Of a DNA stretch of 23,518 nt, positions 12,822 through 23,136 are shown one piece after another (positions within the stretch are counted from its first letter, which is position 1; every line of letters starts with the position of its first letter). The stretch spans positions 1-23,518 of the IMG/VR virus record IMGVR_UViG_3300029266_002517; one strand, given 5' to 3'. The notes beneath the pieces are model-generated. The model was not told the origin of the DNA and did no database searches. It worked only from the letters and a program-made list of their open reading frames with translations. A program made the translations under genes and the position numbers. Origin of the DNA: a virus.

Positions 12822-13730
12822 ATGATTACTAATAAAGAAAAAACCATTTTAGTAACAGGCGGTTGCGGGTTTGTTGGTTCACACATAGTAGATAGACTAA
12901 TTCAGTTAGGGTATGAAGTCAGAGTAATTGATGATCTGTCAGCGCAAGAAAATGAGATATTTTACACAAATCTAGATGCGCAGTATTGGCATAAAGATAT
13001 ATCTAAAGATGACTGTTTCAGCGCTTTTGTTGATGTTGACTATGTTTTTCATCTGGCAGCAAGAAGTCGGATTCAACCCACAATTGGCGCGCCAAATGAA
13101 TGTTTTGAAGTAAATGTAATAGGTACACAGCGGGTTCTAGAATGGTCACGGTTAAACGGAATTAAAAGAGTCATATATTCAGGTACTTCATCTCTGTACG
13201 GTAAACAGAATACAATTCCGTTTGCACCTAATATGCCCGCAGACTGCCTTAATCCCTATTCTATGTCAAAATGGATGGGCGAAAGATTATGCGAACTTTA
13301 CAGTCAACTTTACAGTGTACCTAGCATAGTTTTAAGATATTTTAATGTATACGGCCCAAGAGAGCCGATTAAAGGTGAATATGCACCGGTCATTGGATTG
13401 TTTAAACGCCAAATTAAAAATGGCGAATCTATGACTATAGTTTCTCCCGGTACGCAAAGAAGAGATTTTACATATATTAGTGATGTTGTGGAAGCAAATA
13501 TATGTGCAATGAACAAATCCAGCTGCAATATATCTCACAAGGTATATAATGTTGGTACAGGTAAAAATTATTCAATACGGGAAATAGCTAACATGATCGG
13601 TGATAAACAAGATATAATACCAGCTCGTCCTGCAGAGGTTCAAGAGACGTTGGCAGATATAAGCGAGACTATAAAAGATTTAGGCTGGTCACCAAAATAT
13701 TCGCTAGAAGAAAAAATAATGAGTTATTAA
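12822..13730 (+). CDS. NAD-dependent sugar-nucleotide epimerase/dehydratase (GalE/WbpP-like SDR)
   Basis: This is a 302-residue extended SDR. VTGGCGFVGSH (residues 11-21) is the NAD loop. HLAARSR, SGTSSLYG, Y146-x3-K150 (PYSMSK), LRYFNVYGP and RDFTYISDVV follow in the order of UDP-GlcNAc/GalNAc and UDP-Glc 4-epimerases. The Ser/Thr-Tyr-Lys set is intact, so it should be active. NPYSMSK and RYFNVYGPR place it in the GalE/WbpP/Gne group rather than with the dehydratase at 6051. The substrate is unknown. Its TAA is followed immediately by the ATG of the SET-domain gene. Confidence 0.85.
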   Translation: MITNKEKTILVTGGCGFVGSHIVDRLIQLGYEVRVIDDLSAQENEIFYTNLDAQYWHKDISKDDCFSAFVDVDYVFHLAARSRIQPTIGAPNECFEVNVIGTQRVLEWSRLNGIKRVIYSGTSSLYGKQNTIPFAPNMPADCLNPYSMSKWMGERLCELYSQLYSVPSIVLRYFNVYGPREPIKGEYAPVIGLFKRQIKNGESMTIVSPGTQRRDFTYISDVVEANICAMNKSSCNISHKVYNVGTGKNYSIREIANMIGDKQDIIPARPAEVQETLADISETIKDLGWSPKYSLEEKIMSY

Positions 13731-14036
13731 ATGTATAAGCCTCTGCCTTCTGTCCTAACAATCAAAGCATCAACTGTTCATGGTCTAGGTTTGTTTTCAA
13801 CAGAAAAAATTAAAATAAATACAAACTTAGGGTTAACCCATATTTTTAATCCACTTTTTGAAAATAATTACATAAGAACCCCCTTGGGTGGGTTTTTTAA
13901 TCACAATCAAATCGAGCCAAACTGTAAGATACTAAAGGACGGTGATTGTTTATTTTTAGTAACAATAAAAGATATCCAGCCTAACGAAGAATTAACTGCA
14001 AAGTATACGCTGTATGATCCGGAATTAATTGTGTAA
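13731..14036 (+). CDS. Minimal SET-domain protein (putative lysine methyltransferase)
   Basis: This is a 101-residue protein with no spacer from the upstream TAA. GLGLFST (18-24) is the first SET motif, FFNHNQIEPNC (55-65) is the N-H...PNC motif that forms the pseudoknot and binds SAM, and NEELTAKY (85-92) with Y92 is the catalytic-Tyr end. It lacks pre- and post-SET parts, and is shorter than the 119-residue viral vSET. The first Tyr of the usual 'ELTYDY' is Ala here. It may methylate a host or virion protein lysine; nothing in the neighbours tells which. It is the last gene before the AT-rich hairpin. Confidence 0.72.
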   Translation: MYKPLPSVLTIKASTVHGLGLFSTEKIKINTNLGLTHIFNPLFENNYIRTPLGGFFNHNQIEPNCKILKDGDCLFLVTIKDIQPNEELTAKYTLYDPELIV

Positions 14037-14073
14037 ATCTGATATATCCTGTGTAATATTAATATATCTTAAC

Positions 14074-14095
14074 ATATCAAATCCAGATTTGATAT
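14074..14095 (+). terminator. AT-rich hairpin between glycan cassette and nuclease gene
   Basis: A perfect 9-bp inverted repeat (ATATCAAAT / ATTTGATAT) closes on a CCAG loop and is followed by ATTTC. It lies in the 80-base gap after the SET gene. The stem is weak in GC and the T-run is short, so it may be a poor terminator, a processing site or a protein-binding palindrome. The same gap holds a second GATATAT...ATATATC pair at about 14041-14068. Confidence 0.35.
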
Positions 14096-14099
14096 ATTT
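14092..14099 (+). promoter_or_regulatory. Candidate phage promoter element ATATATTT
   Basis: The octamer ATATATTT ends 17 bases before the nuclease ATG. The same octamer ends 17 bases before the ATG at 15043, in the next gap. It overlaps the right arm of the hairpin. It could be a late-promoter core, but such strings are common in AT-rich DNA. Confidence 0.22.
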
Positions 14100-14116
14100 C
14101 TAACAAAGGGTGGAAA

Positions 14117-14959
14117 ATGAGTATACAGGAATTATTCCCAACAGGAAAACCACACATTTCTTTTTCTGAAATTAAACAGTGGAAAGAATGCAGCTACAGA
14201 CATAAGCTAACGTACATTGATAAGATAGATATGTTCCAGGACAGTCCTTATCTTCACTTTGGAACAGCAGTCCATGAAGGCTGTGAAACGCTAATAGAGA
14301 CCGGCAAAGTAGACCGTGATAAAATACTAGGGGTTATGAAAGAAAGCTGGCAGAAAGCTGGATTTGAAGACCCAGCATGGTATTCGAAGCAACCGGGTTG
14401 GTATAAACATCAGCCTGTTGAAGAGTGGGAAAGTTGGGCAAATAATATGTGGGATGAAGTGCTAGGTTTTTTAGATACACAACTACCGGGTTGGGAATGT
14501 TTTAAAGCTGAAGAACAGCTATATGAAGAAATAGAAAATTTAGACAAGGATCTTTCTTTCAAAGGCTTTATTGATGCTGTTTTTAAAGTTCCTAAAAAAA
14601 GAGGTAAAGGTCACGAATATTGGATCGTTGACTGGAAGACAGCCGGAGCATACGGATGGCGAAGAGATAAAAAGCAAGATTTGGGGATGACAGCACAGCT
14701 TATCCTATATAAACATTTTTGGGCAAAGAAACACAATATTCCCTTGAAAGACGTACGCTGCGCTTTTATTTTACTTAAGCGTGGTGCTAAACCCGGCAAG
14801 CTTTGTGATATTGTAAATGTCGGAGTAGGTCCTAAGACATATGCAAAAGGCATTAAGCTAATGAGGAATATGATTAAGTCTGTAAGAAAAGGAATGTTTT
14901 TAAAAAATAAGCATAGTTGCAAATTTTGCCCTTATTCGGGAACCGAATATTGTACTTAA
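14117..14959 (+). CDS. PD-(D/E)XK nuclease, Cas4/RecB-like, with Fe-S cysteines
   Basis: This is a 280-residue protein with GGGTGG upstream of its ATG. H53 (GTAVHE), D153 (FKGFIDAVF), D172-W-K174 (VDWKTA) and Q194-x3-Y198 (QLILYK) make up the complete motif set of the RecB/Cas4 branch of PD-(D/E)XK nucleases. C25 near the N-terminus, with C268, C271 and C279 at the C-terminus, matches the split four-Cys 4Fe-4S cluster of Cas4 and AddB. The family cuts or resects DNA ends in recombination and repair. No CRISPR array or cas genes are nearby, so a phage recombination or DNA-processing role is more likely than adaptation. Confidence 0.85.
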   Translation: MSIQELFPTGKPHISFSEIKQWKECSYRHKLTYIDKIDMFQDSPYLHFGTAVHEGCETLIETGKVDRDKILGVMKESWQKAGFEDPAWYSKQPGWYKHQPVEEWESWANNMWDEVLGFLDTQLPGWECFKAEEQLYEEIENLDKDLSFKGFIDAVFKVPKKRGKGHEYWIVDWKTAGAYGWRRDKKQDLGMTAQLILYKHFWAKKHNIPLKDVRCAFILLKRGAKPGKLCDIVNVGVGPKTYAKGIKLMRNMIKSVRKGMFLKNKHSCKFCPYSGTEYCT

Positions 14960-20681: not shown

Positions 20682-21230
20682 ATGGCAAGAAAAAAATTTA
20701 GTTTTAAAAGTTCAGGAAAGTTAGTAACTGCTAGAGAACTAACAGACAACTTGATTGTTGTTAATCCTCCGATTGGGATAAAAACGCCTTTAGAGTTTTC
20801 TGCTGGACGGAATGGTGAAGATTTATACAAGATGCATTTTGATGCTGCAGATCAGATTAAGGATAACTTAAGAAACCTGATGCTCACAAATTTTGGTGAA
20901 AGATTGGGAAATGCGGCTCTGGGCGCAAATCTTAAGTCACTTTTATATGACGCGTCAAGCTTGGATTCAATTGAGTCAGAAGTGATAAGAAGAATAACAG
21001 TAACAACAAATAAATACTTACCTATTATAGAAATCAGCAATATAGAAATACGCGCTTTGGGGTTAGATTCAAATAGTAAAAGTATTCGATCAACAAATGT
21101 TTATAATGATTATCAACATCCGGGAAACTCATCCGGTTTATTTGGGATAGTTGTTTTTGTTAAATATGGCATTCCTAGATTGCAAGCATCAAATCAAGCT
21201 ATAGAAGTGACGCTAAAGGTCGCAGGATAA
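20682..21230 (+). CDS. 25: gp25-like baseplate wedge protein
   Basis: This is a 182-residue protein. GIKTPLEF, then the helix IKDNLRNLMLTNFGERLGNAALGANLKSLL, is the GPW/gp25 signature: an early Thr-Pro, the 'NL..LL.T..GER' core, and the G-x-x-L-x-x-L-L end. The protein sits in the baseplate wedge next to the sheath start, and its family is related to phage and T6SS baseplates. It is longer than T4 gp25 (132), with an extra C-terminal beta part. It is followed by the gp6 gene after 16 bases (with AGAGGA), the usual gp25-gp6 order. Confidence 0.85.
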   Translation: MARKKFSFKSSGKLVTARELTDNLIVVNPPIGIKTPLEFSAGRNGEDLYKMHFDAADQIKDNLRNLMLTNFGERLGNAALGANLKSLLYDASSLDSIESEVIRRITVTTNKYLPIIEISNIEIRALGLDSNSKSIRSTNVYNDYQHPGNSSGLFGIVVFVKYGIPRLQASNQAIEVTLKVAG

Positions 21231-21246
21231 ATAAAAGAGGATTCAA

Positions 21247-23136
21247 ATGGCAAGAAATATTAAAAAAGAAGTTAAAAAACATAAAGAAGTATCATATCTA
21301 CAAAAAGATTTTCAATCTTTTAGAAAACAGCTGGAGTCTTTTTCTAGACAGCATTACGGTGATAAAATAATTGACCTTTCAGAAGGATCACTAGCCGGCA
21401 TGATGATAGATATAGCAGCATATGTAGGTGACAGCATGTCTTTTTACATGGATCATCAATTTAATGAACTTTCTTTAGAGACTGCTGTTGAAGAATCAAA
21501 TATTGAATCGCATATAAGACAAACTGGCATCGAAATATCAGGCCCATCGGCTTCAATTGTAGAAGTAACAGTAAGAATTAAAGTTCCTGCGAAGCTAGCC
21601 CGCTTCCCGACGCTATTCAGCAGCAGAAAAAGAAAAAGAGCCGGCTTTAATTACGTTCCTGATCCAATCTTCATACCGAAAATTTTAAATGAAACAATAT
21701 TTTTAAGTCAAGGTGGAACTTCTTTTACGCTGTTGGACACAATAGACTTTGCAAAAAAAGATGAGTTAGGCAACTACATCGCAGACATCGAAATATTTTC
21801 TACAAATAGCGCCAATGAAGTTACTGAATTGTTAATGACAACAATAGGCACGTGTACTAGTGCAAGAACACATGTACAACAAATATCAATCCCAGATAAG
21901 CTTATACCTTTTAGAAAAATAGATTTGGAAAAAACAAATGTAATAGAAATAATATCAGTGATAGACTCGTCAGAAGACAAGTATCACGAAGTTGAATCTT
22001 TAACACAAGATACAGTTTATGAAAGAATGGAAAATACTAGAAAGGATCCGGAACTAGTTCAAGAAAGGATTAGAGTGATTCCTGCACCAAAAAGATATAT
22101 TAAGTTTAGGTCTAGAACTTCAGGTGTAACAACACTAAGGTTTGGTGCCGGAAATGAATTAAAATTTGATGAAGATATAATTCCAGATCCCTCTGATCAT
22201 GCAATAAAGCTATTTGGAGACAGAAAGACATTTTCCAAAATATCAATTGATCCAAACGCGCTGCTAGAGACAAATACATTAGGTATTAGTCCAAGAAACA
22301 CATTGTTGACAATAACTTATAGACACGGCGGCGGCCTAGACAATAATGTTCCAGCCGGCGAGATTCAATCAGTAAAAACGCTAATAACAAAGTTTAATTC
22401 AAGTGTACCTAGTAGTCAAGTTTCAGAAATCAGAAGTACCCTCTCAGTTACAAATAGACTTCCGGCTTTAGGTGGTGAAAACGAACCCACACTTAATGAG
22501 TTAAGAACAACTGCAATATTTGCTAAAACTTCGCAAGGTCGGGTTGTGACTCGGGAAGATTTAATTGCAAGAGTATACAGTATGCCGTCTAACTTTGGAA
22601 GAGTGTTTAGAGTCTCTGTTCGAGATAATCCATCAAATCCGCTCTCTGCTCAATTGCATATTATCTCTAGAGATAGTTTGGGGAAATTAATTCTATCCCC
22701 CGACGTATTAAAAGAAAACTTAAGACTATATTTGAGTCAGTATAGACTGATATCAGACGCTGTAGATGTTTTAGACGCACAAATAATTAATCTTGCATTT
22801 AAATACGCAGTAAATACAGATGCCATGTCAAATCCAGAATCAGTAATTCAATCAATTAATAGTAGCCTTAAGAAATATTTTAAAATTGAAAATTTTCAAA
22901 TTGATCAGCCAATCATGATTGGCGATATAGAAAACATTATTTTAAATACGCGTGGTGTGTTATCAATAGGCAGCATTAGGTTTTTAAATAGAATTGGAAC
23001 TTTTGAAAATAGACAATATTCTTTTGAATCTTATAGTCCAATAAGAAATCTAGACAGAGGCATGCTTTTTCCTCCTCGCGGAGGAATATTTGAGTTTAGA
23101 CATTCCAACGATGATATCATAGGCAGGATTAACTAA
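21247..23136 (+). CDS. 6: gp6-like baseplate wedge protein (gpJ superfamily)
   Basis: This is a 629-residue protein, close to T4 gp6 (660). The N-terminus (YLQKDFQSFRKQL, DLSEGSLAGMMIDIAAYVGDSMSFYMDHQFNELSLETAVEE in pieces) is the typical gp6/gpJ start. TREDLIARVYSMPSNFGRVFRVSV in the C-terminal third and the FKIENFQIDQPIMIGDIENII end are also typical of this family. gp6 dimers make the core of the six baseplate wedges and bind gp7, gp25 and gp53. The gene ends in a TAATG overlap with the next gene. Confidence 0.88.
   Translation: MARNIKKEVKKHKEVSYLQKDFQSFRKQLESFSRQHYGDKIIDLSEGSLAGMMIDIAAYVGDSMSFYMDHQFNELSLETAVEESNIESHIRQTGIEISGPSASIVEVTVRIKVPAKLARFPTLFSSRKRKRAGFNYVPDPIFIPKILNETIFLSQGGTSFTLLDTIDFAKKDELGNYIADIEIFSTNSANEVTELLMTTIGTCTSARTHVQQISIPDKLIPFRKIDLEKTNVIEIISVIDSSEDKYHEVESLTQDTVYERMENTRKDPELVQERIRVIPAPKRYIKFRSRTSGVTTLRFGAGNELKFDEDIIPDPSDHAIKLFGDRKTFSKISIDPNALLETNTLGISPRNTLLTITYRHGGGLDNNVPAGEIQSVKTLITKFNSSVPSSQVSEIRSTLSVTNRLPALGGENEPTLNELRTTAIFAKTSQGRVVTREDLIARVYSMPSNFGRVFRVSVRDNPSNPLSAQLHIISRDSLGKLILSPDVLKENLRLYLSQYRLISDAVDVLDAQIINLAFKYAVNTDAMSNPESVIQSINSSLKKYFKIENFQIDQPIMIGDIENIILNTRGVLSIGSIRFLNRIGTFENRQYSFESYSPIRNLDRGMLFPPRGGIFEFRHSNDDIIGRIN

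Follow-up and report, generated by a model that had tools for sequence, protein, structure and literature searches.

A family of small SET-domain proteins in marine phages: putative minimal protein-lysine methyltransferases

SET-domain enzymes are best known from animals and plants, where they methylate histones. A SET gene in a phage raises the questions of whether so short a protein is a genuine SET protein and, if it is, what it might modify. The gene considered here lies in a stretch of 23,518 nucleotides of viral DNA (IMG/VR record IMGVR_UViG_3300029266_002517), referred to as the window. It runs on the + strand from the ATG at 13731 to the stop codon ending at 14036 and encodes 101 amino acids.

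The window protein and its fold

The open reading frame encodes a real SET-domain protein, as the original prediction from the DNA letters held. The protein matches Pfam SET (PF00856) over residues 54-92 with an E value of 9.9e-10 and 39.2 bits, above the curated cut-off of 22.4 bits, and belongs to PHROG 28741 (E 1.1e-18, residues 1-96 on positions 2-97 of 100), a marine phage family entered in PHROGs as "unknown function". No NCBIfam model matches the window protein, and two relatives give only sub-threshold matches (E 0.044 and 0.19). Structure prediction, suggested from the outset as a check on the fold, yields a confident AlphaFold2 model with a SET fold (pLDDT 90.9, pTM 0.81). Uncertainty is confined to the last dozen residues, where the pLDDT of the tail is 70 falling to 59.

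A Foldseek search with the model returns 61 matches with E <= 0.001, and the best 50 of the 61 are all SET- or PR-domain proteins or complexes that contain such a domain. Among solved structures, vSET (A612L) of the algal virus PBCV-1 matches best, with a Foldseek E value of 2.8e-5 and a TM of 0.71 (VIA: Z 11.7, rmsd 2.4, 88 residues aligned), followed by MLL, SET7, SET8, and PRDM domains. The anticipated resemblance to small SET proteins of algal viruses is thus borne out, and both proteins are free-standing small viral SETs with the same fold. However, vSET is 119 amino acids long in the PDB, is 17 residues longer over the matched range (102 versus 85), and shares 22% identity with the window protein. 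The host of vSET has histones, whereas the hosts of window-type phages are bacteria. A passage of PMC7019647 describes vSET as a histone H3 Lys27 methyltransferase carried in the virion, and the title of a reference given there calls it dimeric.

Two further proteins may be likened to the window protein by description, not by sequence. Go1-SET of Methanosarcina mazei is a free-standing prokaryotic SET with a non-histone substrate; the relevant part of PMC3980110 has this archaeal enzyme methylating the DNA-binding protein MC1-alpha. ORF62 of Stenotrophomonas phage Ps15 is also a phage SET-domain protein, named in a passage of PMC9025141 that gives no function, so phage SET genes are already in print. 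A SET domain is also named in a figure legend of PMC10734472, in an HIMB59 phosphate island.

Family, motifs, and selection

The window protein belongs to a large family of small SET proteins, spread among marine phages with a few bacterial members, that has hardly any annotation. Relatives with 36-51% identity occur in eight phage records, from P-SSM7, P-RSM6, and PH1 (two each), Kolga EXVC016S, and AG-345-P14. A search with a five-row alignment confirmed at least 531 stretches of viral contigs that encode relatives, of which 80 loci were retained; the proposed search for similar small SET genes in phages thereby uncovered a large family of equally short proteins. Contigs of bacterial and archaeal genomes hold 42 loci with relatives, among which statements about chromosomes rest on 12 metK-linked and 9 Porticoccaceae-clade loci, as the others may include phage contigs in bins. 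The alignment used throughout (A3) has 110 proteins, 72 viral including the window protein and 38 from genome contigs. It leaves out the phage-record loci L004-L008, the broken or partial L002 and L198, L169 and L174 with their unknown bases, the too distant L003, and identical duplicates.

All 110 aligned proteins match PHROG 28741, and the annotated phage members of PHROG 28741 that were examined are called "hypothetical protein". Family members have a median length of 103 amino acids, and 53 of the 110 rows are 101 or shorter. The description of the gene as a very small SET holds for its minimal size; its smallness is a trait of the family, and the idea that the protein is unusually small for its family is ruled out. 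A search of the open-licence literature found no study of the PHROG 28741 family and nothing that pairs a SET domain with a cyanophage or with an auxiliary metabolic gene. Some of the "SET domain" matches in that literature are immunoglobulin C2-set or I-set domains and were set aside. Two loci depart from the usual form. In Pseudoalteromonas phage PH1 (L008:4446-5276), the SET domain is the C-terminal part of a 276-residue protein. L003:1516-1887 encodes a more distant, longer SET protein, whose 123 amino acids include an insert in the SET-I region; gp25-like and gp6-like genes (named by eye) lie two genes downstream.

The motifs said to be kept are present in the window protein, with GLGLFS at residues 18-23, NHNQIEPNC at 57-65, and a tyrosine, Y92 in KYTLY, that aligns with the catalytic SET tyrosine; Y95 is a second tyrosine. 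The GxG motif, which binds SAM in other SET proteins, is formed by G18-L19-G20 (codons at 13782-13790, + strand) and aligns with GLG/GRG of MLL-type SETs; G20 is present in 110 and G18 in 109 of the 110 rows. A family signature, R49-T-P-L-G-G-F55 (13875-13895, + strand), has R49 and G53 in every row and T50, P51, L52, G54, and F55 in 107-109. In the SET NH(S)xxPN motif, N57-H58...P63-N64 (13899-13922, + strand), both asparagines are found in 110 rows, H58 in 109, and P63 in 92. The codon of Y92 (14004-14006, + strand) aligns with the Tyr of ELTYDY in MLL-type SETs, a position that is Tyr in 109 of 110 rows with a gap in the remaining one. GxG, NH, and this Tyr occur jointly in 107 of the 110 proteins, the window protein included; the exceptions are L050, with Tyr for His, L197, with Arg for the first Gly, and the truncated L176. 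Ten residues are invariant in all 110 rows: L5, S14, G20, G34, H37, R49, G53, N57, N64, and E87.

Three positions deserve separate mention. I61 (13911-13913, + strand) is an extra residue inside the NH-to-PN loop that occurs in the window row and is missing from the other 109; L002, outside that alignment, likewise has four residues in this loop. Position 90, two before the catalytic Tyr, corresponds to the Phe/Tyr switch, which a passage of PMC2797608 discusses together with the essential Tyr of SET enzymes. It is Leu, Val, or Ala in 96 of 110 rows, A90 in the window protein, and never Tyr. Position 36 is Thr or Ser in 105 of 110 rows and has no Tyr, although it may correspond to the first active-site Tyr present in many SETs; this correspondence is one that we infer, vSET not being among the five alignments listed in the shortened-profile search.

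The profile of 110 relatives finds MLL-type SETs best (2e-10) and vSET (1n3j) with 1.8e-9 over positions 10-94. The GxG, NHSxxPN, and catalytic-type Tyr of MLL/KMT2 SET domains align with those of the window family, and the differences lie between and beyond these motifs. The interval between the second Gly of GxG and the Asn of NH spans 64 residues in MLL4 (4z4p), 37 in the window protein, and 34-40 across the family, so that about 27 residues of MLL4 are missing here. Residues 45-61 of MLL4 (4z4p), where the SET-I region begins, have no counterpart, and R49-T-P-L-G-G-F stands in place of the MLL/KMT2 IDATLTGGPARY stretch. The post-SET cysteines of MLL/KMT2 are absent. The window protein is a bare SET core: it lacks a pre-SET, its SET-I insert is almost gone, and some nine C-terminal residues form a tail where a post-SET domain would otherwise stand.

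The SET gene is under purifying selection. Its closest relative, at L002:8001-8313, is 89% identical in the best segment, and dN/dS between the two is 0.076; the nuclease gene next to it gives 0.032 and the epimerase gene 0.095. In the L002 copy, a 7-nt insertion breaks the reading frame; dN/dS is 0.099 on one side of the break and 0.052 on the other, and since both parts are constrained, the break is recent or a sequencing error. A chance resemblance to SET is ruled out by the Pfam score, the relatives (all 110 in PHROG 28741, with the motifs together in 107), the profile matches, the model, and the dN/dS value.

Gene neighbourhoods in phages and bacteria

Upstream of the SET gene is a sugar or surface-glycan cassette that encodes a nucleotidyltransferase, a sulfotransferase, a DegT aminotransferase, a dehydroquinate-synthase-like cyclase, a SIS protein, a cytidylyltransferase, a DAHP/KDO8P-synthase-like enzyme, and, as its last gene, an NAD-dependent sugar epimerase (12822-13730, + strand; Pfam Epimerase, E 4e-59). 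The next gene downstream encodes a PD-(D/E)XK nuclease-like protein (14117-14959, + strand; Pfam PDDEXK_1, E 7.2e-21), and tail genes follow, with baseplate wedge proteins at 20682-23136. Placement at a cassette boundary is confirmed by three observations: the epimerase stop abuts the SET start codon (TAA-ATG); the window and L002 are collinear from the epimerase downstream, while the upstream sugar genes differ in content and order; and the slot before the PD-(D/E)XK gene is variable across 38 loci. Counts of promoters or terminators tied to the SET gene are no higher than in shuffled sequence. In the 80 bases between the SET and nuclease genes (14037-14116), several GATATA-like words accompany an inverted repeat, ATATCAAAT...ATTTGATAT; the region is partly altered in L002.

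In the window, L002, L090, and L009, SET fills the final slot of the cassette, just ahead of PD-(D/E)XK, and the PD-(D/E)XK gene is directly downstream of SET in L002, L009, L090, and L080. In three other loci (L096:6174-7526, L100:6628-7944, and L103:6595-7935), the slot holds ahcY, the SAH hydrolase gene, whose product is 51-55% identical to a Marinimicrobia protein. Among 68 loci fetched with the PD-(D/E)XK protein, SET was detected in the flanks examined of only three, L089, L124, and L090, many of the 68 being distant or cut short, which makes absence uncertain in some. L089 lies on the same contig as L002, and L124 on that of L009; L080 came by another route. With 3 of 68 loci, SET as a stable gene of the window's phage lineage is unsupported.

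Across 88 viral loci, the window included, the neighbours of SET are nuclease, gp25/gp6 baseplate, large terminase, HNH-terminase-portal modules, exonuclease, primase-helicase, and nrdB genes, and no shared phage neighbour that names a substrate was found. Such varied neighbours are the pattern of a mobile accessory gene and do not favour one fixed virion substrate.

Among chromosomal members, the order SET-metK-ahcY is found in 12 of 12 loci of one streamlined Marinimicrobia lineage. Nine of these have Marinimicrobia or Neomarinimicrobiota in their titles; the labels of the other three, L157 ("uncultured bacterium"), L161 (Flavobacteriales), and L169 (Chloroflexi), look misassigned, given a MetK identity of 88-92%. 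In a draw of 199 genomes from the phylum, 12 match, 9 strongly and 3 weakly (5e-5 to 2e-6); the 9 strong genomes, the only ones used, all have metK and ahcY next to SET and overlap with the 12 loci. Within the taxonomic family of that Marinimicrobia genome, SET is found in 10 of 24 genomes, metK in 13, and ahcY in 13, and all 10 genomes with SET are among the 13 with metK and among the 13 with ahcY. In G179, a relative without a SET match, 125 bases separate metK-ahcY from the same gene that lies upstream in the SET carriers; loss of SET there and gain elsewhere are equally possible. Several SET-less genomes of that family lack metK altogether, possibly through incompleteness.

A second chromosomal lineage is gammaproteobacterial, in the Porticoccaceae, where the fatty-acid gene fabB is directly upstream of SET in seven loci (L188, L190, L191, L193, L194, L197, and L198). 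The tree label "Porticocc_fabB" covers eight rows, among which L189 and L192 have no detected fabB. An order-level search around the Porticoccaceae genome gave matches in 18 of 145 genomes at E <= 0.001; apart from the reference genome, these are at 1e-12 or weaker and often cover part of the profile, and they were rejected as family members. In a quick tree of the 110 rows, each chromosomal group forms a single clade, with SH-aLRT values of 99 and 98-99. The metK clade falls within a weakly supported 18-row group (87) that includes the window, L009, L090, L010, L014, L021, and one Saccharibacteria-labelled row. This nesting among phage proteins hints at capture from phage to host; with 105 columns for 110 rows, the tree is a hint and not proof.

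Function and its alternatives

The window gene probably encodes a functional, minimal SAM-dependent protein-lysine methyltransferase. Sequence, predicted fold, and selection establish a SET protein; the activity and the substrate are inferred from these and from the gene contexts. SAM would be held between the GxG loop, N57-H58, and the knot, the substrate lysine would enter a channel lined by Y92, and the methyl group would then pass from SAM to the lysine. The likelier product is di- or tri-methylation, since the Phe/Tyr-switch position is never Tyr. According to passages in the sources, the substrate peptide docks on the first SET-I strand in every ternary complex compared (PMC2797608), and all other SAM-bound structures have a post-SET segment that contributes to the cofactor site (PMC3868588). 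With both elements minimal in the window protein, it must recognise its substrate, and perhaps complete its SAM site, in another way. The site is perhaps incomplete in a monomer, as SET-I is nearly absent and the post-SET region is a low-confidence tail; a dimer, or the substrate itself, may complete it. Against a methyltransferase stand the lack of Tyr at position 36, the extra I61 of the window copy, and the frameshift in L002.

The last two of these points would also suit a degenerate, inactive relic, or a SET fold kept for binding, but this reading is highly unlikely when dN/dS is 0.076 overall, both sides of the L002 break are constrained (0.099 and 0.052), and the motifs are kept in 107 of 110 proteins. 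A quite improbable alternative has the protein act on SAM or its supply, by binding, sequestering, or consuming SAM and so depriving host methylation or restriction of it. In its favour, the motifs that contact SAM persist while the substrate-docking SET-I and post-SET are reduced, chromosomal members head a SAM synthetase/SAH hydrolase cluster, and ahcY occupies the same slot before PD-(D/E)XK in three related phages. Pure SAM binding, however, would not need the catalytic-type Tyr that is present in 109 of 110 rows; ahcY at 3 of 38 loci may be a coincidence, as this slot accommodates a wide variety of genes, and we know of no SET protein that degrades SAM.

If the protein does methylate lysines, its substrate could be a virion or assembly protein of the phage (baseplate, neck, or tail), for instance to stabilise the particle. 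Genomic proximity speaks for this: SET is directly upstream of the gp25 and gp6 baseplate genes in T4-like relatives (L005, and L006 as judged from shared neighbour clusters), it directly follows a large-terminase gene (cluster 34) in L073, L075, L077, L078, and L082, and in the window it lies about 6.5 kb away from the baseplate genes. Packaging of vSET in its virion, as described in the passage of PMC7019647, points the same way. This target is nonetheless unlikely, as other contexts involve replication (primase-helicase in L004), nrdB (L007), HNH/packaging, lysis, or exonuclease genes with no structural neighbour common to all, and members on bacterial chromosomes beside metK-ahcY or fabB indicate a function that does not need a virion.

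For the lysine methyltransferase, a host protein as target is somewhat likelier than a virion protein. The targets named in the original prediction, such as a ribosomal, nucleoid, or virion protein, are guesses. The substrate may be a protein of the host, or one shared by many phages, that is modified in the course of infection, an assignment made with less confidence than the activity. It is suggested by the behaviour of SET as a single accessory cistron that moves between unrelated phages and also serves bacteria, and by its place inside a SAM-cycle gene cluster in one bacterial lineage. A wider and doubtful scenario is that a mobile phage SET methyltransferase of about 100 amino acids, working without the usual SET-I and post-SET docking, might serve host takeover, and that streamlined marine bacteria might have taken it from phages and set it at the head of a metK-ahcY cluster, tying protein methylation to SAM supply.

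The fold and the kind of enzyme are already known; what sets this variant apart is its SET-I-poor architecture, its RTPLGGF signature, its breadth among phages, and its metK-ahcY linkage. Recognition of the family would help annotate hundreds of phage proteins that presently have no function label. Copies beside metK-ahcY tie the family to the SAM cycle and offer a lead to a substrate. If active, these proteins would be among the smallest protein methyltransferases, would reveal how much of the SET core is enough, and would suggest that lysine methylation is a common, overlooked phage modification in the ocean.
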